NCBI GenBank assembly: GCA_012719355.1
Contig: JAAYAM010000023.1
Coordinates: 1-62,583, forward strand
Direction of reading: 5' to 3'
Source of the DNA: Acidobacteriota bacterium
GTDB taxonomy: Bacteria > Acidobacteriota > UBA6911
Length of the DNA stretch: 62,583 bases
A program made the translations under genes and the position numbers. Position 1 is the first letter of the stretch; each line of letters begins with the position of its first letter. The notes beneath the pieces were generated by a model that saw only the letters and a list, made by a program, of their open reading frames with translations, did no database searches and was not told the origin of the DNA. Below, one piece after another: positions 31,305 through 43,411 of the stretch.

Positions 31305-33104
31305 TCACTTTCCCGAGAGCCCGAACATCGGTGAATGATGGGTCTCGAGGGTTCGACCCCGGCCCAGGTACATGTGAACGCCGCAGGGGAGGCACGGATC
31401 GAAGCTGCGGACGGTTCTCATAATGTCGATCCCCTTGAAGTTGTCCGGCCCGTTCTCTTCGAATATGGGGGTGTTCTGCACAGCATCCTCGTAGGGTCCC
31501 GGTGTGCCTAATGTATCCCGCGGGCTCGCGTTCCAGGGTGTGGGCGGATACGGATGGTAGTTCGCGATTTTTCCGTCGCGTATCACCATGTGATGCGAAA
31601 GCACTCCCCTGACTGCTTCGTGAAATCCGCAGCCGATCGCCTCGTCCGGGACCTTGAAATCGGTCCATGTCCGTGTCCGTCCGGCGCGGACCTCATTAAG
31701 TGCTCTCTCTGCGAAATAGACGGCGAGCGCTGCGGAGTATGCCTGGAAATAGCTCCTGGCGCGGTTCCGCTCCAGGGCGTTGCTCCATTGGGGCACCTTC
31801 CACTCGAATTCGACTGCGGGGCGCAGGGCCGTCTTCGGGAGGTTGATCTTCACGCTGTTTCCGGTCGCCTTGACGTAGTCGTTGTTGACGAGCCCGTTCA
31901 GCGCCGTGGCCCAGAGTCTTGCGATCGGTCCGCCTCCGGTATCGAGAGCGAGGTAGTCTCCTGTCCTTTCATCGTACCAGCGGGGCGACATGACCCAGGT
32001 GTAGTTTCCGGTGAAGTCCCTCTTTTGCGGCCGCGGAATCGTCGTCTGATTCCACGGATGGCGTTTGTCGACAGGATTTCCCAGCGGGTCACGAGGTACA
32101 AAGGTCTCAGAATCCTGCCAGTCATCGTAATAGGAACTGCCGAGCAGAATGCGGATGCCGAGGTTGATCTTAATCAGCTCGTTTGTGACGACTTTGCCGT
32201 CTACGATGACGCTGGGGGTGACGTACATCGCCTTTCCCCAATTGTTCATGTTCGCGTACTTGTAATCGCAGACATAGGGATCGTTGAATGCGCCCCAGCA
32301 GCCAAGCAGGATTCTGCGCTGTCCGACTTTCTCGTACCCGGGAAGCGCGTCGTAGAAGAAGTCAAACAGGTCGTCGTGCAGCGGCACCACCTTCTTCATG
32401 AACTCAACATACTTCATGAGCCGCACCAGATAATCGGTGAATACCTGCACGGTTCCTGCAGTTCCGACTCCACCCGGATAGAGGGTCGAAGGATGGACAT
32501 GCCGACCTTCCATCAGGCAGAACATCTCGCGCGTCAACCGGCTCATCTGCAGTGCTTCACGGTAGAACTCGCCGGTAAACGGATTGAGAGAGCGCATGAT
32601 GTCGGCGATGGTCCTGTATCCATGGGCGTCGGCACCCGGAGAAAGCGTCTTCTCGGCCTTCTCGAGTACCCCGGGATTGGTCTGCTTCACCATCTGTTCG
32701 CAGAAGTCGACGCCGACGAGATTCTCCTGGAAGATGTTGTGGTCGAACATGTACTCCGCGGCTTCTCCGAGATTGATGATCCATTCCCCGAGAGGCGGGG
32801 TCTGAATTCCGAAGGCCATATTCTGGGTGTACACGGAGCATGTCGCGTGATTATCGCCGCAGATGCCGCATATCCTGCTCGTGATGAAATGCGCATCTCT
32901 GGGATCCTTGTTCTGCATAAATATGCTGTAGCCGCGGAAGATCGAAGAGGTGCTGTAGCACTCGGCGACCTCCCGGTTGCTGAAGTCTATCTTGGTATAG
33001 ATCCCCAGGCTGCCGACGATTCTGGTAATCGGATCCCAGTTCATCTCGACGGTGTTGGGCGACTTGGGGAGTACTTCACGCTTGGTTTTGATAATAGTGC
33101 TCAT
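31305..33104 (-). CDS. [NiFe] hydrogenase large subunit, group 1h type
   Basis: The 599-residue catalytic subunit has both nickel-binding motifs: R77-I-C79-G-I-C82 (L1) and D569-P-C571-L-P-C574-G-V-H577 (L2). A 22-residue tail after H577 is the peptide cleaved on maturation. Sequence and operon partners fit the high-affinity hydrogenases (group 1h, earlier group 5) that let aerobic soil bacteria live on trace H2. The assignment to 1h is by recognition, not by a tree. It follows the small subunit gene by 19 bases. Confidence 0.93.
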   Translation of the reverse strand: MSTIIKTKREVLPKSPNTVEMNWDPITRIVGSLGIYTKIDFSNREVAECYSTSSIFRGYSIFMQNKDPRDAHFITSRICGICGDNHATCSVYTQNMAFGIQTPPLGEWIINLGEAAEYMFDHNIFQENLVGVDFCEQMVKQTNPGVLEKAEKTLSPGADAHGYRTIADIMRSLNPFTGEFYREALQMSRLTREMFCLMEGRHVHPSTLYPGGVGTAGTVQVFTDYLVRLMKYVEFMKKVVPLHDDLFDFFYDALPGYEKVGQRRILLGCWGAFNDPYVCDYKYANMNNWGKAMYVTPSVIVDGKVVTNELIKINLGIRILLGSSYYDDWQDSETFVPRDPLGNPVDKRHPWNQTTIPRPQKRDFTGNYTWVMSPRWYDERTGDYLALDTGGGPIARLWATALNGLVNNDYVKATGNSVKINLPKTALRPAVEFEWKVPQWSNALERNRARSYFQAYSAALAVYFAERALNEVRAGRTRTWTDFKVPDEAIGCGFHEAVRGVLSHHMVIRDGKIANYHPYPPTPWNASPRDTLGTPGPYEDAVQNTPIFEENGPDNFKGIDIMRTVRSFDPCLPCGVHMYLGRGRTLETHHSPMFGLSGK

Positions 33105-33123
33105 TCGACAGCCTACCCTCCGT

Positions 33124-34185
33124 TCAGTAGCTCCGCGGCTTATAGCCGGTCGTGAGCCGGGTTCCCCGATGACGCCACTTCGGTTCTTTGTTCACTGTGG
33201 AATGGGTGATGCCGCGAAGAGCGCGGATCATCCCTCCGTAGCTCATGCTGATTGCGCCTGAGGAGAATCGCGCTCCTAGGGGTTCTTCCATGAAGGGCAT
33301 GAATTTGTCCGGGAAACCGGGCATGGTGCAGGCGATGCATATTCCCCCGACATTGGGACATCCACCGATTCCGCGCATCCAGCCCCGCTTCGGTACGTTG
33401 CAGTTCACGACCGGACCCCAGCAGCCGATCCGGACAAGGCAACGTGGTGAGCCGTATTCATGCGTGAATTGTCCCTGTTCATAGTAGCCGGCGCGATCAC
33501 ACCCTTCGTGCACCGTCTTACCGAACAGCCACGTAGGCCGGAGCATGTCATCCAAAGGAATCATGGGTGATTGTCCGGCCGCCTGATATAGAAGATAGAG
33601 AAGCGTCTCCATGAAATTGTCCGGCTGAACAGGACACCCGGGAACATTCACAATGGGAATTCCGGCCTTTGATTGCCAGCCCCAGCCTAGGTAGTCAGCC
33701 AGACCCATGCATCCGGTGGGGTTACCCTCCATGGCGTGAATGCCGCCGTAGGTGGCACATGTCCCTGCGGCGACGACCGCCCAGGCCTTTGGCGCGAGGC
33801 GGTCGATCCACTCGCAGGTCGGAATCGGTTGTCCTGTGTCCGGATCCTGTCCTTGTGCAGCCCAGCATCCTTCGGTCTTTATGCTTTCATTCGGGATCGA
33901 CCCTTCCACTACGAGCACGAAAGGATCGAGAAGGCCCATCTCGGCCTTGTAAAAGTATTCGATGAATTCGTCCCCTACCTCGACGGCAAGTACGGGATTG
34001 TGCAAGTGCACTTTGGGGAGTCCGGGAATCGCGCCCAGCAGCACATCTTCTATGCTGGGCTGTTCGGCGGCGGTAACCGATACGGTATCGCCGTCGCAGC
34101 TGAGCCCGGCGGTAAGCCAGATTATGTGCACGTCAGTGACTGCCGGAGGCTGATCGCTCGGAGGTGGAACGTTGCGCTCTTGCAT
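33124..34185 (-). CDS. [NiFe] hydrogenase small subunit, group 1h type, no Tat signal
   Basis: The 353-residue electron-transfer subunit has cysteine motifs for three Fe-S clusters (GLSCDGD; TCATYGG; GCPVQP; GCDRAGYYEQGQ; GCWGPVVNCN; GGCPNVGGICIACTMPGF). There is no twin-arginine leader, so the enzyme is cytoplasmic, as in group 1h. In the proximal-cluster motif the usual CxxC reads C30-D-G-D33. D33 thus stands in place of a cysteine, matching the three-cysteine, one-aspartate cluster described for the Ralstonia group 1h enzyme. It is the first gene of the operon; GAGGGGGT lies five bases before the ATG. Confidence 0.93.
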   Translation of the reverse strand: MQERNVPPPSDQPPAVTDVHIIWLTAGLSCDGDTVSVTAAEQPSIEDVLLGAIPGLPKVHLHNPVLAVEVGDEFIEYFYKAEMGLLDPFVLVVEGSIPNESIKTEGCWAAQGQDPDTGQPIPTCEWIDRLAPKAWAVVAAGTCATYGGIHAMEGNPTGCMGLADYLGWGWQSKAGIPIVNVPGCPVQPDNFMETLLYLLYQAAGQSPMIPLDDMLRPTWLFGKTVHEGCDRAGYYEQGQFTHEYGSPRCLVRIGCWGPVVNCNVPKRGWMRGIGGCPNVGGICIACTMPGFPDKFMPFMEEPLGARFSSGAISMSYGGMIRALRGITHSTVNKEPKWRHRGTRLTTGYKPRSY

Positions 34186-34790: not shown

Positions 34791-36245
34791 CTACTGCTTC
34801 GGCGCCGGTATCGTGGTGTCGATAGTCCGAACCTGTCCCAGAGTTGAAAGCGGCTTGTCGAATTCGTCTGGATTCCCCACAACCAGGATCTGCAGTTTAT
34901 CCGGATGAATGTGCGTCCGGGCCGCGCGCAGAATATCTTTGGCTGTCACCTTGTCGATCTGGTCACGCATCTTCATCAGAAAGTCGGCAGGATATCCGTA
35001 ATACTCGTAAGTCAGGATACGTGAGACTATTTCCCCTTCCGTGTCGAAGTTGAATACGAATGAGTTCATGAAGCTCTCTTTGGCCAGTTTCAACTCCTCC
35101 TGGGTGACTTCAGATTCCCTGATCTTCTTGAGTTCCGCAATCATTGCCGAAATTGCCTGGAGAGTGCTTTCGGATTTCGTCTGGCAGCCGACCGTAAACA
35201 TGCCGGGATATACGTAATTGGTTCCGTAGCTGCCGAATACCGAGTACGCCAGACCTTCACGGGAACGCACGTTCTTGAACAATCGTCCGGTGAATCCCCC
35301 ACCGAGGATCTGGTTCATGACCACTAGGGCAGGATAATCGGGATCCTTCGCCAGTCCTCCGATGTGGCCCATCACGACATTCGACTGGTTCAGGTCGGGG
35401 CGCGGCACCATATTCACGGTGTTGACGAAGCGGTAATCCACCTTGGGCGGTGGAGTAGCGGCCGAGTCGCTGACTTTTTTCCATCCTTTGAACGCAGACT
35501 CGATCACCTTAACCATTTCGTCGGTTTGGAAGTCTCCCCATACCGCGGCAATTACCGCGTTTGGTCCGTAGAATTTCCGGTGGAAAGCGACGAGATCGTC
35601 GCGGGTGATCGCATTCACGGTAGCGTATTCCGGATGTCTCGCGTAGACGCTCTCTTCGCCGTAAATGAGCTTGGAGAACTCGCGCCCTGCAATCTGGTCG
35701 GGTTCGTCATTTCGGCGGGCAATCGCACTGCGCATCTGGATCTTGGCAAGCTCGATTTTGTCCTGAGGAAATGCCGGATTCATCAGGATATCCGCCAATA
35801 TCGACAGGGTCCTGGAAATGTCCTGTTTAAGTACCGAAAGAGAGGCAAATCCGTAGTCCGCTCCCATCCCCGTCTCAACGGAAGCCGCCATCGATTCCAG
35901 CAGCTCGTCGATTTCGTCCCCGCTCATCGTGGGGGTGCCGCCGGTCCGCATTACCTCGCCCGTTATGTCAGCCAATCCTATCCTGTCAACGGGATCATAT
36001 ATAGAGCCTGTCCGGATACGAGCCGTCAGCCGGATCAGCGGCAACTCATGATCCTCCAGCAGCAGCAGTTGCATTCCGTTTGAAAGAGTGACGCGCGACA
36101 CTTCAGGGATCTTGATCTCCCGCAGCGGAGGGTACTCCAGGTTCCTGTAGTCAGTCGTCGTCTGCTGGGCAGCAGAGGCCACAGTTCCGAACGCCAGCAG
36201 GACAAGCAGACCCGCCTTTACCACAGATGAATTTACGGTCTTCAT
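34791..36245 (-). CDS. M16 family peptidase-like subunit lacking the zinc site
   Basis: The 484-residue secreted protein (signal peptide about 1-25) has the M16 fold, with the second-half motif ILGGGFTGRLFKNVRSREGLAYS. The HxxEH zinc motif is replaced by GLADITGEVMRTGG, so it should be catalytically inactive and act as the partner subunit. It overlaps the active subunit gene upstream by ATGA. The pair would form a periplasmic or surface heterodimer like mitochondrial processing peptidase or bacterial two-gene M16B systems. Confidence 0.9.
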   Translation of the reverse strand: MKTVNSSVVKAGLLVLLAFGTVASAAQQTTTDYRNLEYPPLREIKIPEVSRVTLSNGMQLLLLEDHELPLIRLTARIRTGSIYDPVDRIGLADITGEVMRTGGTPTMSGDEIDELLESMAASVETGMGADYGFASLSVLKQDISRTLSILADILMNPAFPQDKIELAKIQMRSAIARRNDEPDQIAGREFSKLIYGEESVYARHPEYATVNAITRDDLVAFHRKFYGPNAVIAAVWGDFQTDEMVKVIESAFKGWKKVSDSAATPPPKVDYRFVNTVNMVPRPDLNQSNVVMGHIGGLAKDPDYPALVVMNQILGGGFTGRLFKNVRSREGLAYSVFGSYGTNYVYPGMFTVGCQTKSESTLQAISAMIAELKKIRESEVTQEELKLAKESFMNSFVFNFDTEGEIVSRILTYEYYGYPADFLMKMRDQIDKVTAKDILRAARTHIHPDKLQILVVGNPDEFDKPLSTLGQVRTIDTTIPAPKQ

Positions 36246-37756
36246 CGTTCCACCCCCGCTCTGGATTTCTGATCTGTTGCTGCGGTTTCTATAAATCCCA
36301 CTGTCCGGTTGTCGGGCCTGAAGTATGTTTGGGCGACGCGCTGGATGTCCTGTGCCGTCACCTTCTCGATTCTCTCGAGCTGCCTGAAGAGATTGCGCCA
36401 GTCGCCGGTTATGGTCTCGAAAAACGCCAGCTGCTGCGCCAGTCCCTGGTTTGAATCGAGCTGCCGAATCAGACTGGCCCTTGCTCTGGTCTTGGCCTTT
36501 TCGAGTTCCTCGGCGGTTACCTGCTCATTTTTCAACCTGTCTATCTCTTCATAGATCGCTTTCAGATTCTCCTCGTTCGTGTGGCCCCGCGCGGGCACGG
36601 AATAAAAGAGGAAGAGGCCGGGATACTTCACCCCGGGCATTCCCTGAAACCCCGAGGCTTCGACGGAAATCCGTTTTTCCTTCACCAGGCTCTTGTACAA
36701 CCGTGAGGTGCGGCCTGTGCCCATTATGTCGGTGATGGCATCAAATACTGCGTCGTCTTCATGATTAATGCCCGGTTTGTGATAGCCGACCAGTACGAAA
36801 GGCTGGGCGGGATCGCTTATCACAACGCGTCGTTCTCCAATCTGCCTTGGTTCGACGGTCTCGACCGCCTCCGGTTCGGGCTTGCCGGGAATGCGGCCAA
36901 AATACCTCGCGGCCAGTTCCTTGACCCGTGCCGGCTGCACGTCTCCGACGATGGCGACGATCATGTTGCTCGGGACGTAATACTTTCTGAAGAATTCCTC
37001 CGCCTCCTCGCGGGTTACTGTCTGCAGATCACTCATGTGACCGATGACCGGCTCTCCGTAGGGATGTGCCTTATACGCAACGGCGAGGAACTCTTCGAGC
37101 AGCCTTCCCACCGGCTGCGTTTCGGTCCGCAGCCTGCGTTCCTCCATCACCACATCCCGTTCCTTGTAGAACTCACGCAGCACAGGATCCAGGAACCGCT
37201 CCGATTCCATCAACATCCACAACTCCAGCTTATTCGAGGGGAGATTCACCATGTAGACCGTATAGTCGTAGCTGGTTCCGGCGTTCAGTCCGGTGGCTCC
37301 CTCCCGCTTCAGCGCTTCCTCGAATTCATCATGAACGAGGTACTGCTGCGCTTCCTGCTGCTCCTTGGCAAGTTGCCGCCGCAGTTCCTCGACCCGCTTC
37401 GGATCTGATCGCTTCCCCTTTTGAAGCTCTTCCTTCAGCGCCTTGAAGGCCGCATCAATCCGCTCCAGCGCCTTGGCTTCCGCCTGGTAATCCTTCGTCC
37501 CTATGGTCGATGTCCCCTTGAACGCCATGTGCTCGAAGATGTGGGCCAGTCCCGTGATTCCCTTGACCTCGTCGACCGCGCCGACATCGACATGCGTGTA
37601 GCACGAAACCACCGGAGCATCATGCCGCTCGAGCACAATGAACTTGAGCCCGTTGTCGAGCGTAAACTCCGTCACGTCCTTTTCAAAATCGGCGAGATTC
37701 TGGGCCGCAGCCGCCGGCAGCAACAGAACAACGAGAAGAAGCGATGCATATCGCAT
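36242..37756 (-). CDS. M16 family zinc peptidase, active subunit
   Basis: The 504-residue protein has a signal peptide (about 1-18) and the inverted zinc motif H72-I-F-E75-H76 in GLAHIFEHMAFKGT. A charged helical insertion (about 85-150, rich in E, K, Q and R) separates it from the rest of the active domain. The C-terminal half has the substrate-binding partner fold. It probably degrades peptides in the periplasm together with the inactive subunit encoded immediately downstream. Confidence 0.93.
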   Translation of the reverse strand: MRYASLLLVVLLLPAAAAQNLADFEKDVTEFTLDNGLKFIVLERHDAPVVSCYTHVDVGAVDEVKGITGLAHIFEHMAFKGTSTIGTKDYQAEAKALERIDAAFKALKEELQKGKRSDPKRVEELRRQLAKEQQEAQQYLVHDEFEEALKREGATGLNAGTSYDYTVYMVNLPSNKLELWMLMESERFLDPVLREFYKERDVVMEERRLRTETQPVGRLLEEFLAVAYKAHPYGEPVIGHMSDLQTVTREEAEEFFRKYYVPSNMIVAIVGDVQPARVKELAARYFGRIPGKPEPEAVETVEPRQIGERRVVISDPAQPFVLVGYHKPGINHEDDAVFDAITDIMGTGRTSRLYKSLVKEKRISVEASGFQGMPGVKYPGLFLFYSVPARGHTNEENLKAIYEEIDRLKNEQVTAEELEKAKTRARASLIRQLDSNQGLAQQLAFFETITGDWRNLFRQLERIEKVTAQDIQRVAQTYFRPDNRTVGFIETAATDQKSRAGVER

Positions 37757-37904
37757 GCGTAACCTCCGCGAATTACGAAAGAAGTGATACTTCCCGCCTC
37801 GATAGGAAATAGACAGGCATCACCTGTCGGTAAGTATACCGCATTGCATCGATATGTGTCGGATCTGACTTTGCTGCGTCTGCACCCCGGGGGCCGGATC
37901 CGGT

Positions 37905-38465
37905 TTAGAGATGATGCCGGGCATAAAGCGGAAAGATGCCGCTGCTGACATGCCTGACATCTTCGATTGTGTAGAAGGCGTTCGGATTGAACTTCATGAT
38001 CTCTTCCGCGATGTTCCTGACGTCGAGACGGCGGATAACTGTCATCAGAATACTGACTTTGCCGCGTCCCCCCTGGCCGGTGATGTTGGTGACGCCGTAA
38101 TTCTTCTTCCGCAGATGCTCCAGGAGCGACGAAGGGTCTTCCTGTGTGATCACCCTCAGAAGAACGATCCCGACTGCCAGTTTTTCCTCGATGATCAGGC
38201 CCACATAGTTTCCCATGGCAAAACCGCCGCCGTAGGCCAGATAGCAGGGGATGTTTGTCAGGTTCCTCATCACCTGTCCTATTGCCAGCAGCCAGATAAG
38301 GACTTCAAAGAACCCGACAATCGGAGCAAGCAGTTTCTTTCCTTTCGAGATGAAGATAATCCGAAGTGTCTGCAGGCTCACGTCGATAACTCTCGCCAGG
38401 AATATCAGCAGCGGCAGAACCACCCACGTGAAAATCTCCGAATCGAACAAAGAGGCCAGTACCAT
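37905..38465 (-). CDS. UPF0316/DUF2179 membrane protein
   Basis: The 186-residue protein has about three membrane helices in its first 90 residues. A cytoplasmic DUF2179 domain follows (about 100-180: GIVLLRVITQEDPSSLLEHL; ILMTVIRRLDVRNIAEEI), similar to YebE/UPF0316 proteins. The function is unknown; DUF2179 domains are thought to bind a small ligand and appear next to transport-like membrane parts. It is the last gene of the opine-dehydrogenase operon, 23 bases after the AsnB-like gene, so it may sense or move the product. Confidence 0.87.
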   Translation of the reverse strand: MVLASLFDSEIFTWVVLPLLIFLARVIDVSLQTLRIIFISKGKKLLAPIVGFFEVLIWLLAIGQVMRNLTNIPCYLAYGGGFAMGNYVGLIIEEKLAVGIVLLRVITQEDPSSLLEHLRKKNYGVTNITGQGGRGKVSILMTVIRRLDVRNIAEEIMKFNPNAFYTIEDVRHVSSGIFPLYARHHL

Positions 38466-38488
38466 CTCGATCTCCTGATGCTGGGCAG

Positions 38489-39799
38489 CTAGGAATCGCT
38501 GCCCGCGCCTTTGGTTCTCCCCATCCAGTCGAGGTTCCCCATCTCACCGAAATGATCGCGGAAAACCCGGTAATACATTAGTTCTTCCTTGGAGTTCAGC
38601 ACCCAACCGTTTTTGAGTTTCCTCTCGCTTGCAAATTCCGCATCTGTGATGCTGCGCTCCGCGTGTCCGGCGATCACGTCGCCGACCCCGGCGCCTTCCC
38701 AGAACTTTGCCTTTGGGCGCGCGACGATCTCCTGCGGGAGGCTTCCGTCAATAGCCTGCCGCAGTATCCATTTCTCCATGCTCCCCTTCAGCTTGTACTG
38801 TGTTGGGATGGTCAGTGCCAGTTCGACCAACTCAGGATCAAGGAAGCAGACGCAGGGAGTCAGCCCGTGAGCCGACGCGCACCGGTCAACCCGTTGCAAG
38901 GCGGTGTTGTGCAGGCGGTTTGTGATATCGATCAGTTCTTCGGCCAGTTTGGTGCCGGGAAGCGATTTCAGGTACGCGTATCCGCCAAAGAGTTCATCTC
39001 CCCCTTCGCCCGAGAAGACTTCCGATACGTAATCGGCAGCAGCCTGGCCTGCGAGAAAATTGGTCAGACTTGAGCGCACCAGGAGCGCGTCGAACGATTC
39101 CAGGTGATAGATAACGTCGGGAAGTGCGTTCAGCAGATCCTGAGGAGTGACTACAATCTCGTGGTGTGTCGACTTCACGAAATCGGCCACCATTCTGGCT
39201 GCCGGCAGGTCAGGGGCGCCGGCAAGTCCCGCGGCAAATGTGTGGAGCTGCTTCACGCGTGGACGCGCAAGTGCAACGATAGTGCTTGAATCGAGCCCGC
39301 CCGAAAGCCAGGATCCCATGACATCGCCTGAGGCGTACTTCTCGACTGCTTCGGTCAGCTTCCGCCGCAATTCGGCCGTGAGAATTTCGGCCGGTTCGGT
39401 GCGTGGAGGCCGTAGCTCGAGTCGGTAGTACTTAGTACTTGTCGTGCCGTCGAAAAGGGTTCCCGGCTCAACCTCGTGGACCTTGCGGGTTGCCTTCAGC
39501 AGCGCCTTTACCTCTGAAGCGAAACACAGGTTGCCTTCTGCGTCGAATCCATAGTAGAGGGGACTGATGCCCAGCGGATCGCGCCGCAGGATGAGCTTGC
39601 CGTCCGACACGTATACGCGCGTCGATAGATCCTGGTCCGAGACATCCCTGTGGTTGCGGGAAAGCGCAAGGGTGCAGATTTCATCCTCCACTATTTCCAA
39701 CGGGTCTCGTGTCCTGTGTTTTAGCGCGCCGGCCATCTCCCGCACAAGATCCCTGTGCCCTCTGCCTGCAATTCCTGCTATCGTGATCGTTTTGTACAT
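38489..39799 (-). CDS. Asparagine-synthetase-like ATP-dependent amidase/cyclase without the glutaminase cysteine
   Basis: The 436-residue protein is an AsnB homologue. The ATP pyrophosphatase half is intact: SGGLDSS at 166-172 and GEGGDELFGGY near 261-271. The N-terminal glutaminase-like half is short (about 120 residues against roughly 200). It starts MYKTITIAGIAG, lacking the obligatory Cys2 nucleophile of MCGI. HRTRD replaces HRGPD. It should therefore adenylate a carboxylate and use ammonia or an amine of the substrate itself. Known AsnB relatives with a lost cysteine include beta-lactam synthetases and carbapenam synthetase. It sits between the B12-binding protein and a DUF2179 protein in one operon. 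Confidence 0.82.
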   Translation of the reverse strand: MYKTITIAGIAGRGHRDLVREMAGALKHRTRDPLEIVEDEICTLALSRNHRDVSDQDLSTRVYVSDGKLILRRDPLGISPLYYGFDAEGNLCFASEVKALLKATRKVHEVEPGTLFDGTTSTKYYRLELRPPRTEPAEILTAELRRKLTEAVEKYASGDVMGSWLSGGLDSSTIVALARPRVKQLHTFAAGLAGAPDLPAARMVADFVKSTHHEIVVTPQDLLNALPDVIYHLESFDALLVRSSLTNFLAGQAAADYVSEVFSGEGGDELFGGYAYLKSLPGTKLAEELIDITNRLHNTALQRVDRCASAHGLTPCVCFLDPELVELALTIPTQYKLKGSMEKWILRQAIDGSLPQEIVARPKAKFWEGAGVGDVIAGHAERSITDAEFASERKLKNGWVLNSKEELMYYRVFRDHFGEMGNLDWMGRTKGAGSDS

Positions 39800-39817
39800 C
39801 CATAGTCCCTTTCGTCA

Positions 39818-41674
39818 TCAATTCCGGGCGAGGCGCTGCATCCGTTCGCCTGCGCTCACCGGTATTCCATCCTTGTCAACAATCCTCACGCCTCCTTGTA
39901 TCATCCGGGTTTGCCACAGTGTAGCTTTTCGAAACTCTTCCTTGCATTCCCAAAGATATGGGACCGGCAGATACCCTTCGGAAAAGATCCTGTACAGGCC
40001 GTCGACCGAGTAGGGTTCCGGGACCGTCGTTTCGATGGTCTGCAAGACCGTGCGGGCTTCGGAAATCAGGGCATTGGTCCGCTGGAGTACGTCCCTGTCC
40101 TGCGACATGTCGTCGATCAATCCACGGCGCCGCAGTTTCCGGTATTCCTCAAGAGCGTGTCGTGTGATCTGAATGCTTTCGTTTACGACCGCGGGATCCG
40201 CAAGATGCGATGCTTCGGAATAGCTGACGACGTGGATTATGGGCGGGCTTGCCGGAGAGTGGGGCTCAATATCGTCCATCAGTGCCGTGACTGCAGCAAG
40301 CTGCGCCTTCGCCTTCTCTATATCGGGGGAGAAATAATCGAGTCCGCCGCGCGGCTGCAGAAAAACTGAAAACCGCTGGTCCTGCAGTTCACGCACCAGG
40401 GTCAGCATTGCCCGTGACTTGGCCAGATCCTGCACTCCCCAGGTGTACTTGGGGGTATTGAGCATATTCTGCAGCACCAGATGGCGCACTCCCATGTGTT
40501 TGGCGAGTCTTGCGGCCAGAACAGCCGAAACGACATACGTCACGTCGTCGGCGCCGCGGAAAGCGAAGTGATGCGGCACATTGGGCTCAAAAGGCTTTCC
40601 GGAGGACGCTATGTACTTCAATGTGTCCAGATGCTCGCCCAGATTGTCGTAGACTGTGTTTGGTCCTCTGCCGTCAATCCGGCAGAACCACCACAGAGAC
40701 AGGGCGTGCCAGGCTATGTTGATCGTCTCTTCGTACATGCGCGCAAGTGCGGCCAGATTCCTCGTCCCCGCATAGCAGCGGACCAGCAGCGGCCTTGCAG
40801 TCTGCCACACGAGCGCAAATTCCTCCCTGGTGTTCAGCGGGACGCCGCCGCCGTCGGGTGAATCGCCCCAGTCTTCACCGAATCTGGATTGCGATAACTG
40901 CGAGGTTCCTATCGACAGAACATCAAGAAAGCCCGTTTCGGCAAGCGTCCTCGTCCATTCGAGAAACGTACGCACGGCTTCCGTCCGGTCGGGGCTGTAG
41001 GGTCCGACATGGGCCCGCATCAACGGAGAGAGGCCGCGTTCCAGGTGGTATCGTACCCGTGCCACAAGCGTGTCGTTCCCTGTCCCGAACGCCTGGTATT
41101 CTCTTTTCGGTGTCGGCATCACTTTGAAATAATCTGCCCGGCGGACGATGTCCCGCCCGAAAGCAAGGCGGTCCTCGTCATAGCTCACTCCCGCTATTGA
41201 AGAAGGGAGCAGGCTGGAACTGATTCCGAAACGCGCGAGTGTTTCTGCCGCGGTTTCATCGCCGCGGAATACGGCGGTCACTTCGGGATGTTTGGCCGAG
41301 ACTATGTCACAGGCCCGGGGAAGCCCCGCAAAATAGATCGCCCGGATCGGTCCTCCCTGTGGAGCGAGAAGCCGGAGCCGTTTTAGAAGCGCCAGCAGCT
41401 CTGCGAAAACGGCTGCGCCGTCCACCGGATCGAGCCTGTAGCTGAAGCCCAGTACAGTGATCTTATTGGCAGCGATCCATTGTCGTATGCTCCCTGTATT
41501 TGCCGGATCAGCCGGATCGCCGAATGCGGCACACGCGGACGCGTCGGCTGTCACCGATTTGAACCCGCATTCTGAAAGGAGCTGCTCCAGCGCATTGATT
41601 CCGAGGACATGGACGTCCACCATGGGATGTACGAGTCCGAAGCAGTCATCACGACTTAGAGTGTAGAGAGACAT
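39818..41674 (-). CDS. B12-binding, mutase-like TIM-barrel protein
   Basis: The 618-residue protein begins with a cobalamin-binding domain: D20-x-H22-x-x-G25 (VDVHVLG) is the base-off, His-on signature, and S78 in GFSYRL fits the next conserved serine. From about 190 on, a large catalytic domain (PDGGGVPLNTREEF; WWFCRIDGRGPNT; HHFAFRGADD) resembles in outline the TIM barrel of methylaspartate (glutamate) mutase. The resemblance is partial and the substrate unknown. The lone polypeptide combines what MutS and MutE do as separate subunits. It is placed four bases after the opine dehydrogenase gene and 18 before the AsnB-like gene. I would call it a cobalamin-dependent enzyme of unknown reaction. 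Confidence 0.7.
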   Translation of the reverse strand: MSLYTLSRDDCFGLVHPMVDVHVLGINALEQLLSECGFKSVTADASACAAFGDPADPANTGSIRQWIAANKITVLGFSYRLDPVDGAAVFAELLALLKRLRLLAPQGGPIRAIYFAGLPRACDIVSAKHPEVTAVFRGDETAAETLARFGISSSLLPSSIAGVSYDEDRLAFGRDIVRRADYFKVMPTPKREYQAFGTGNDTLVARVRYHLERGLSPLMRAHVGPYSPDRTEAVRTFLEWTRTLAETGFLDVLSIGTSQLSQSRFGEDWGDSPDGGGVPLNTREEFALVWQTARPLLVRCYAGTRNLAALARMYEETINIAWHALSLWWFCRIDGRGPNTVYDNLGEHLDTLKYIASSGKPFEPNVPHHFAFRGADDVTYVVSAVLAARLAKHMGVRHLVLQNMLNTPKYTWGVQDLAKSRAMLTLVRELQDQRFSVFLQPRGGLDYFSPDIEKAKAQLAAVTALMDDIEPHSPASPPIIHVVSYSEASHLADPAVVNESIQITRHALEEYRKLRRRGLIDDMSQDRDVLQRTNALISEARTVLQTIETTVPEPYSVDGLYRIFSEGYLPVPYLWECKEEFRKATLWQTRMIQGGVRIVDKDGIPVSAGERMQRLARN

Positions 41675-41678
41675 TCTT

Positions 41679-43298
41679 TCAATCCTCTGTCTGAGATATG
41701 GAGGAAGACGGCGGTGACGAAGATCCGGAATCTGCGCCGGCTACGAGAAACCTTATTTCCTTAACCGACATATTGGCGATTCCCAGGCGGTCCACCGTTC
41801 GTCCCTCGGCCCAGTAATCGACGCCATGCATCGCCGAAGCAAGGAAAATCATCGATCGCATTGCCGGCGTGGCCACTCCCAGCATTTCGCCGATCGAGAC
41901 AATAGGCACGAGGCTCGTAGGCACATCCTCGGAGATGTAGCGGTGATCTATTATCGGAGGGGCTTTGATGCCGTTATAGCCGATGTTTGCACGCATAGCT
42001 TCGAACAGGGTTCTGCCGGCCGCATCATAGGCCAGATAGAGCCATTCCCGGGCAGTCGTTGCGCGGATCCCGAGCGCGTTTGCAACCTCGACGCGCTCGC
42101 GGTCGATAGCCTCGAGGACTGCGGCTATGGCCGGCGTGACTCCTTCGACATAGTACTCGAAATCTCCGTGAGTGTCCTCAATGCGCCCCGCATTCAGAAT
42201 CGTTATGGCCGGATGGAAGACCGCACCGATATTGTCGAGACTCGTTTTCAGAATGTTATCGCCGGGCACGAACTGCGGCAGCGCCTTACGAATCATCGGG
42301 AGTACGTCAATGATGTGATAGGCGGGGAGCGTTGCCAGAGGCACCGAATTCTTGATGCCGAAAATCTGAACCTGTCCCGGATTAGTTACTCGTGCCGCGT
42401 AAAGCAGTGTCTGTGCTTCCGCTATGAACGGACGCACACGCGGATTGTGCCGTCGTATGACCTGAGCAACTTCCAGCGCCCCTCCGGTGCGTCCCGGATT
42501 CAGTACGAGCACTTGGCCGTCTTTTATGTGCGGCGCGATTAATTCAGCGATTTCGGCATGCCCTATCGCGGGCACAACCACCATGAGAATATCCATTCCG
42601 AAAATCGCCTCTGCCGGATCGGATGTAACCTTTTTCAGCGGCGCAAATCCGCTGACCACGCCGCGGACATCGATTCCGCCCAGTTCTTTAACCGGGAGAA
42701 TCCGCGCTTTGGTCCGGTTGAAAAGATTGACCTTACATCCAAGCATCGAGAGGTGCCCTGCCATGGCAGTCCCGCCGTGTCCGGCTCCCAGCACACAAAA
42801 GGACGGCATTCCGTCATCCGTGACAATCTCGCCGAGGGAGGCTTCGCCTTCCGAGACTCTCGCGATCAACTCGCCAACCGAATTGGCCTGTGTCAGAGCA
42901 TCGATCATTTTGTCCGCTTCACAAAGGTGACCGATCCGACTTAAGGCCTTCAGATAGAGGCCGTGGGCCTGCGGGGGGGCGATAAGGACGAACACGACTT
43001 TGAGACGCGGTCCATCGGATCTGTTCCAGGAGATGCCGTCAGGAATGACGGCGATGGCGAGAAGCACCTGCTTGCATGCGGCCGTAACCGCGTGTGCTAC
43101 TGCAACGCCGTTGCGCTCGCCCGAGAAAACCGTTGTTCCTTTTCGTTCCCGGCTGGTGATGTCTTTGATGGCCAGCGGCACGTCGACTCCTCTTGTTTGT
43201 GCGAGGCTTTCGATCAGAAGTCGGATGACTTCTTCCTTCTGCCTCGCTGAGACCCTCAAGAGAGATGACTCCGCCACCAGAAGAGATGCAAGATGCAT
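41679..43298 (-). CDS. PTS EIIA-like domain fused to an octopine/nopaline-type dehydrogenase
   Basis: The 539-residue protein has an N-terminal EIIA domain of the Ntr/fructose type (about 1-145), whose GVAVAHA places H69 at the phosphorylated histidine. An NAD(P)-binding Rossmann fold (FCVLGAGHGGTAMAGHLS, about 167-184) and an opine dehydrogenase C-terminal domain follow; FHPAITILNAGRIED contains the expected catalytic histidine. Opine dehydrogenases reductively join an amino acid to a keto acid. The fused EIIA may let sugar or nitrogen status gate the activity by phosphorylation, which is inference. It is the first gene of the operon and has a good -10 upstream. Confidence 0.85.
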   Translation of the reverse strand: MHLASLLVAESSLLRVSARQKEEVIRLLIESLAQTRGVDVPLAIKDITSRERKGTTVFSGERNGVAVAHAVTAACKQVLLAIAVIPDGISWNRSDGPRLKVVFVLIAPPQAHGLYLKALSRIGHLCEADKMIDALTQANSVGELIARVSEGEASLGEIVTDDGMPSFCVLGAGHGGTAMAGHLSMLGCKVNLFNRTKARILPVKELGGIDVRGVVSGFAPLKKVTSDPAEAIFGMDILMVVVPAIGHAEIAELIAPHIKDGQVLVLNPGRTGGALEVAQVIRRHNPRVRPFIAEAQTLLYAARVTNPGQVQIFGIKNSVPLATLPAYHIIDVLPMIRKALPQFVPGDNILKTSLDNIGAVFHPAITILNAGRIEDTHGDFEYYVEGVTPAIAAVLEAIDRERVEVANALGIRATTAREWLYLAYDAAGRTLFEAMRANIGYNGIKAPPIIDHRYISEDVPTSLVPIVSIGEMLGVATPAMRSMIFLASAMHGVDYWAEGRTVDRLGIANMSVKEIRFLVAGADSGSSSPPSSSISQTED

Positions 43299-43383: not shown

Positions 43384-43411
43384 ATTATAGGGTAGAGACA
43401 GATGAGGGCAA
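43384..43411 (-). promoter_or_regulatory. Predicted promoter of the opine-dehydrogenase operon
   Basis: On the minus strand TTGCCC (43411-43406) and a perfect TATAAT (43389-43384) are 16 bp apart, giving a start near 43377 and a leader of about 80 bases. The leader is too short for a cobalamin riboswitch, and none is apparent. Confidence 0.55.

Follow-up and report, generated by a model that had tools for sequence, protein, structure and literature searches.

A four-gene Acidobacteriota operon as one version of a rare yet widely distributed module that pairs a B12 mutase-like protein with an opine dehydrogenase

What might a bacterium make with an opine dehydrogenase, a candidate B12 mutase, an amide ligase and a membrane protein that are encoded one behind the other? 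Such a gene set (genes A to D) lies on the minus strand of contig JAAYAM010000023.1 of assembly GCA_012719355.1, from an Acidobacteriota bacterium with a genome of 4.57 Mb; we refer to the whole stretch of DNA that was analysed, 62,583 nucleotides in length, as the window. The operon represents one form of a module that is already known but functionally uncharacterised, and the pairing of A with B is not itself new. Our reading, to which we give a probability of about 0.5, is that this widespread but rare module is biosynthetic and that its product is an opine-like derivative of an amino acid, capped as an amide and either exported or serving as an osmotic solute.

We evaluated the neighbourhood of gene B across genomes. 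A scan of 84,980 species genomes for relatives of B gave 482 candidates, and the 89 loci considered here comprise the best 80 of these, which were fetched, together with relatives from a phylum search (two duplicates were dropped). Counting gene A where it lay on the strand of B and within 4 kb, using queries made from the dehydrogenase part only, we found it as a neighbour of B in 73 of the 89 loci, spread over many phyla. Near B there is a ligase in 46 of the 89 (AsnB in 21 and ATP-grasp in 26, with both in one locus). The A-B linkage is far above chance, and that of C is clear. An earlier interpretation made from the letters alone (the sequence-only reading) had named the absence of such neighbourhoods from other genomes as grounds for giving it up; the gene families are in fact neighbours in distant genomes. 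The module occurs in at least 18 phylum-level groups, with gene orders that include ATP-grasp/B/A/PF05552 (Spirochaetota), A/PF05552/B/AsnB (Verrucomicrobiota and WOR-3) and A/B/AsnB/MarC/DUF389 (relatives from the window's phylum), and a deltaproteobacterial metagenome-assembled genome (MAG; locus L029) holds the window's exact operon, in the order MscS/A(EIIA)/B/C/D. Ligase type clusters on the tree of B (none of 500 shuffles was as low), and three changes between AsnB and ATP-grasp suffice to explain its distribution there. Gene B itself is patchy, being found in 11 of 297 genomes of the window's phylum and in 2 of 395 and 3 of 294 genomes of two other phyla, with none in the congeners sampled, a distribution that fits horizontal spread; a syntenic flank was not found in congeners, where relatives of the flanking phosphoesterase reach just 32-35%. 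Other arrangements were also seen: A and B are followed in two related loci by a different third partner, a 'putative cyclase' gene of PF04199 (L030:5329-5964 and L033:11790-12425; confirmed by Pfam in L033), and in two loci of the window's phylum (L016:8579-11283 and L017) B lies without A between a TauE-type permease (by Pfam) and an apparent alanine:cation symporter.

Gene A (41679-43298, minus strand, 539 aa) encodes a fusion of a phosphotransferase system (PTS) EIIA domain and an opine dehydrogenase, with domain matches to PTS_EIIA_2 (8e-20) and Octopine_DH (4e-49). The EIIA part, of the PtsN/fructose type, covers residues 1 to about 158 and has its phospho-His at H69; the dehydrogenase part covers residues from about 165 to 517, with a catalytic-type His at H362. 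This part combines the Rossmann and Octopine_DH domains (PF02317) with the catalytic His, as expected of an opine dehydrogenase, and its closest solved structure is N-(1-D-carboxyethyl)-L-norvaline dehydrogenase (CENDH; 1bg6, 1.8e-73). With 1bg6 and other opine dehydrogenases A shares the full-length Octopine_DH architecture, the catalytic-type His (within the NxxAVxHP motif) and the RY..ED motif, and it differs from them in its extra N-terminal EIIA phosphocarrier domain. That fusion is found in nine loci (the window, L024, L029, L031, L034, L035, L038, L040 and L048), and the phospho-His is conserved in all nine. The window's genome has a single A; it also encodes HPr, the neighbours of which we read as HPr kinase (HprK) and EIIA-Man, and this combination makes phosphorylation of the EIIA domain plausible.

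Gene B (39818-41674, minus strand, 618 aa), a predicted fused adenosylcobalamin (AdoCbl)-type mutase, matches no Pfam family itself, but its relatives match the B12-binding family PF02310 (1.7e-14 at best) and, slightly below the cut-off, MutE (PF06368, 2.4e-5). Its N-terminal B12-binding domain carries the motifs D20-V-H22-V-L-G25, S78-Y-R-L and F115-A-G117-L-P; all 45 B sequences compared have the B12 His, 40 of them as part of a D/E-x-H-x-x-G motif. In an AlphaFold2 (AF2) model with a mean predicted local distance difference test (pLDDT) score of 89.9, residues from about 200 to 618 are predicted to form a glutamate-mutase-epsilon-like barrel: the top Foldseek match is glutamate mutase epsilon (1cb7_B, E 6.2e-11, TM (target) 0.64), followed by Lys-5,6-aminomutase (8e-8). 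A B12 domain joined to this modelled mutase barrel would make B an AdoCbl carbon-skeleton mutase, for which the cob(I)alamin adenosyltransferase encoded in the window's genome makes a supply of AdoCbl plausible. We rejected a corrinoid methyltransferase (the N-domains of a few relatives match NCBIfam corrinoid-protein models, but the barrel matches mutases) and a pyridoxal phosphate (PLP) aminomutase (Lys-5,6-aminomutase being a structurally weaker match than glutamate mutase).

Barrel residues R220, H222, Q262, R299, R336 and E487 are present in 46 of 46 B sequences. We lined up the predicted strands of B with MutE (L104, in C. cochlearium numbering), a mapping built from sequence and predicted strands and not from coordinates, in which MutE Arg149 would correspond to the invariant R299, Glu330 to the invariant E487, Arg100 to the invariant Q262 and Glu171 to a Ser/Pro position; Arg66, Arg100, Arg149 and Glu171 are the residues of MutE that we take to bind glutamate. 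Relative to glutamate mutase (MutS plus MutE; 1cb7/1ccw), B shares the predicted fold, the B12 DxHxxG motif and probable counterparts of Arg149 and Glu330; it differs in being a single fused polypeptide that has the B12 domain in front, in its identity of 14-15%, in the apparent replacement of Arg100 and Glu171, in falling below the Pfam MutE cut-off and in its partner genes. The window's genome has a separate MutE homologue (L105, G000:C227:2761-4089) beside a MutS-like gene and a CoA-transferase-like neighbour; this homologue retains Arg66, Arg100 and Arg149, has an altered Glu171 region and may be a non-glutamate mutase. In an archaeon (an Aenigmatarchaeota MAG; L094:9950-11842) B is split into two open reading frames of 762 and 1032 bases.

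Gene D (37905-38465, minus strand, 186 aa) encodes a membrane protein with DUF5698 and DUF2179 domain matches, which in an AF2 model is predicted to have three long N-terminal helices and a PII-like cytosolic domain; the solved folds closest to the model are the c-di-AMP receptor PstA and the DUF2179 structure 3hlu. It has neither a PF05552 nor an MscS domain and does not class as a mechanosensitive channel. D adjoins the module in the window and in three fetched loci (L029 on the same strand, L018 and L038 on the opposite strand). PF05552 or MscS proteins, confirmed by Pfam, lie near B in 27 of the 89 loci; a membrane protein is thus a recurrent partner, in support of the sequence-only reading. 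All MscS/PF05552 matches from a profile search of the gene calls lie at most 2.7 kb from B and on its strand; because the loci reach up to 10 kb on each side, this confinement acts as a built-in control against chance. Export of amino acids by MscS-type channels is described for other bacteria (PMC6110860, PMC12541555). The genome has one further DUF5698-DUF2179 gene, which shares about 48% identity with D and stands at a site that lacks the operon (L002, G000:C301:6039-6302).

Gene C (38489-39799, minus strand, 436 aa) encodes a putative asparagine-synthetase-type amide ligase (Asn_synthase, 5e-60) in which GATase_7 is reduced to a remnant. The shortened glutaminase domain is without Cys at the Ntn position (MYKTITIAGIAG in C versus MCGIA in relatives), an absence that the sequence-only reading had observed, and C consequently lacks the N-terminal nucleophile of a glutamine-dependent asparagine synthetase. 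It shares the synthetase domain and the SGGxDS loop (ATP motif S166-GGLDS) with asparagine synthetase B (AS-B; 1ct9) and with beta-lactam and carbapenam synthetases (1jgt, 1q15), and it differs from AS-B in its shortened N-domain and at the Asp-site threonines Thr322/Thr323, which are replaced by Leu/Leu or Pro/Leu (Leu-Leu in C). The glutaminase Cys is lost in 13 of the 21 linked AsnB proteins (the window and 12 relatives; the L041 match is a fragment) and kept in eight, and this retention points to amide formation from glutamine as their ancestral reaction. The window's genome encodes further AsnB-type proteins besides C.

These residues bear on the central proposal of the sequence-only reading, a lactam or beta-lactam-like pathway in which C would close an opine-derived amino acid intramolecularly. 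Beta-lactam and carbapenam synthetases likewise lack the glutaminase Cys, and they use an opine-type N-carboxyalkyl amino acid kind of substrate; however, the dyad of beta-lactam synthetase (beta-LS) is replaced in C (Tyr348 by E265 and Glu382 by Q302), and the nearest solved relative is AS-B (4e-52), not beta-LS (7e-18). Because C retains AS-B-like residues (Glu348 as E265 and Lys449 as K363) and has no Tyr/Glu dyad, the comparison favours amide formation over lactam closure; the Cys-containing state of eight of the 21 linked proteins also argues against closure, and we regard the lactam pathway as very improbable. A different outlet for the products of A and B would be a glycan building block: the two enzymes would make an N-carboxyalkyl or branched amino acid of an unusual kind, and the ligase would couple it through an amide bond to amino sugars on a surface polysaccharide or on flagellin. 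In three loci, from Bacteroides pyogenes (L098), Polaribacter (L075) and Alkaliphilus (L096), A-B does come shortly behind an ATP-grasp gene, within polysaccharide clusters that contain glycosyltransferases and DegT-type aminotransferases (with a methyltransferase between ATP-grasp and A-B in Polaribacter), and in Azoarcus (L102) A-B is near flagellin genes; but in the loci examined from spirochaetes, Verrucomicrobia and Syntrophaceae, as in the window operon, there are membrane-channel genes and no glycan genes, so that we regard this explanation as unlikely.

Catabolism, in which anaerobes that ferment amino acids would import an amino acid or opine and break it down with B and A (A acting as an opine oxidase), would suit the many Clostridia and Tissierellia among the carriers, two loci from these groups in which B lies beside amino-acid-type ABC importer genes (L045:884-5690 and L052:9920-14795) and the catabolic role of glutamate mutase itself. 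Those importer loci have no A nearby, however, and an ATP-consuming ligase partner in 46 of the 89 loci suggests biosynthesis; we therefore hold a degradative role to be quite doubtful. The biosynthetic reading must in turn be set against several observations that count against it: several Clostridia carry B without A nearby, an hhalign comparison of B with two MutE sequences was not significant, D is rarely linked to the module, and the linked MAGs include no evident halophiles. B is probably a mutase with a substrate other than glutamate itself, since the MutE substrate residues Glu171 and Arg100 are seemingly replaced. The A-B product may also be used otherwise in Bacteroides, Polaribacter and Alkaliphilus, as a glycan substituent, because the pair lies there within polysaccharide clusters.

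The analysis shows the four genes with their folds and motifs, their linkage and the exchange of the ligase; from these we infer the following reactions, substrates, product and physiological role for the biosynthetic module. B would act as an AdoCbl-dependent enzyme of the glutamate-mutase type and isomerise an acidic amino acid or some compound derived from it, and A would couple an amine and an alpha-keto acid to an N-(carboxyalkyl) amino acid at the expense of NAD(P)H (these two steps could come in either order). C would then adenylate a carboxylate for amide formation and, its glutaminase being dead, would take free ammonia or some other amine as the nucleophile; elsewhere the same step would fall to a glutamine-dependent AsnB or to an ATP-grasp ligase. 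The membrane protein (D here; MscS/PF05552, MarC plus DUF389, or TauE elsewhere) would release, retain or sense the product, which in the window's lineage would most likely be an osmotic or secreted solute, and the fused EIIA domain would allow the regulatory PTS of the genome to switch A by phosphorylation. Among known osmolytes, N-acetyl-beta-lysine is reached by a mutase-plus-capping route, and N-acetylglutaminylglutamine amide is the product of an AsnB-type amidotransferase. It is a more tentative suggestion that the module defines a new class of B12-dependent metabolite, in which an amino acid would be isomerised, made into an opine, given an amide cap, and stored as an osmolyte or released by a dedicated MscS-type or PII-domain membrane protein, with A itself gated by PTS phosphorylation.

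The layout of the operon agrees exactly with the sequence-only reading, in that the four genes are co-directional, at the positions given there, with gaps of 4 (A-B), 18 (B-C) and 23 bases (C-D); its names for the enzyme families are also correct. Its claim of one transcript holds in so far as it depended on spacing, to which we add conserved linkage and order elsewhere. The promoter candidate on which it also drew lends no support: the promoter-like site upstream of A (43384-43411, minus strand; TTGCCC-16-TATAAT, 10/12) and the weak terminator-like hairpin after D (37812-37828, minus strand) belong to kinds of site that are no more numerous here than in shuffled sequence. Several special origins or controls were rejected: a compositional island (the GC content of the operon, 0.54-0.60, is the same as that of its flanks), a plasmid-borne origin (B has no plasmid match), an anti-phage system (PADLOC gave no match) and a cobalamin riboswitch (none near 16 A-B loci or in the window region; the scan gave an NrsZ match at 18 bits, far under its cut-off). 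Directly downstream of the operon are two consecutive M16 peptidase genes (34791-37756, minus strand), and beyond them both subunits of an apparent [NiFe] hydrogenase (31305-34185, minus strand).

Zhang, Rodionov, Gelfand and Gladyshev predicted in 2009 a novel B12-dependent protein family that adjoins octopine dehydrogenase and has a D-Ala-D-Ala ligase or AsnB in its vicinity (PMC2667541). The present module corresponds to this family in the B12-binding N-terminus (PF02310 in relatives of B), in the PF02317 octopine/nopaline dehydrogenase neighbour (in the window and in the same 73 of 89 loci) and in the nearby D-Ala-D-Ala ligase or AsnB. The 2009 study covers 11 genomes from four taxa, assigns neither a barrel fold family nor a reaction, and does not report the EIIA fusion, the glutaminase loss or the membrane partner; we found no later paper on the module among the open-licence papers searched. 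The assertion that no pathway with this gene set had been described is accordingly right about function, which was never demonstrated, and wrong about the association, which was predicted in 2009 (PMC2667541).

To that prediction we add a mutase fold for B and a membrane partner for the module; we also find that one type of ligase can stand in for another, that A is fused to EIIA in nine loci, and that the AsnB glutaminase has been lost repeatedly. A complete-looking B12-dependent pathway that was predicted 17 years ago is still without an assigned reaction; the mutase fold, the interchangeable ligase and the membrane partner would limit the candidates for its product to small N-carboxyalkyl amino acids in amidated form, and the question can now be put to the test with a handful of purified enzymes and by comparing metabolites. 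The PylBCD pathway to pyrrolysine is built from three kinds of step, namely a carbon-skeleton mutase, an ATP-grasp amide ligase and an NAD(P) dehydrogenase. PylB is a radical-SAM enzyme and PylD is unrelated to opine dehydrogenases, and we found no homology of the module proteins to either. The likeness is one of analogy only: the same three kinds of step would recur in the module, and the ATP-grasp protein of Bacteroides pyogenes (L098) has a weak PylC-like_N match.

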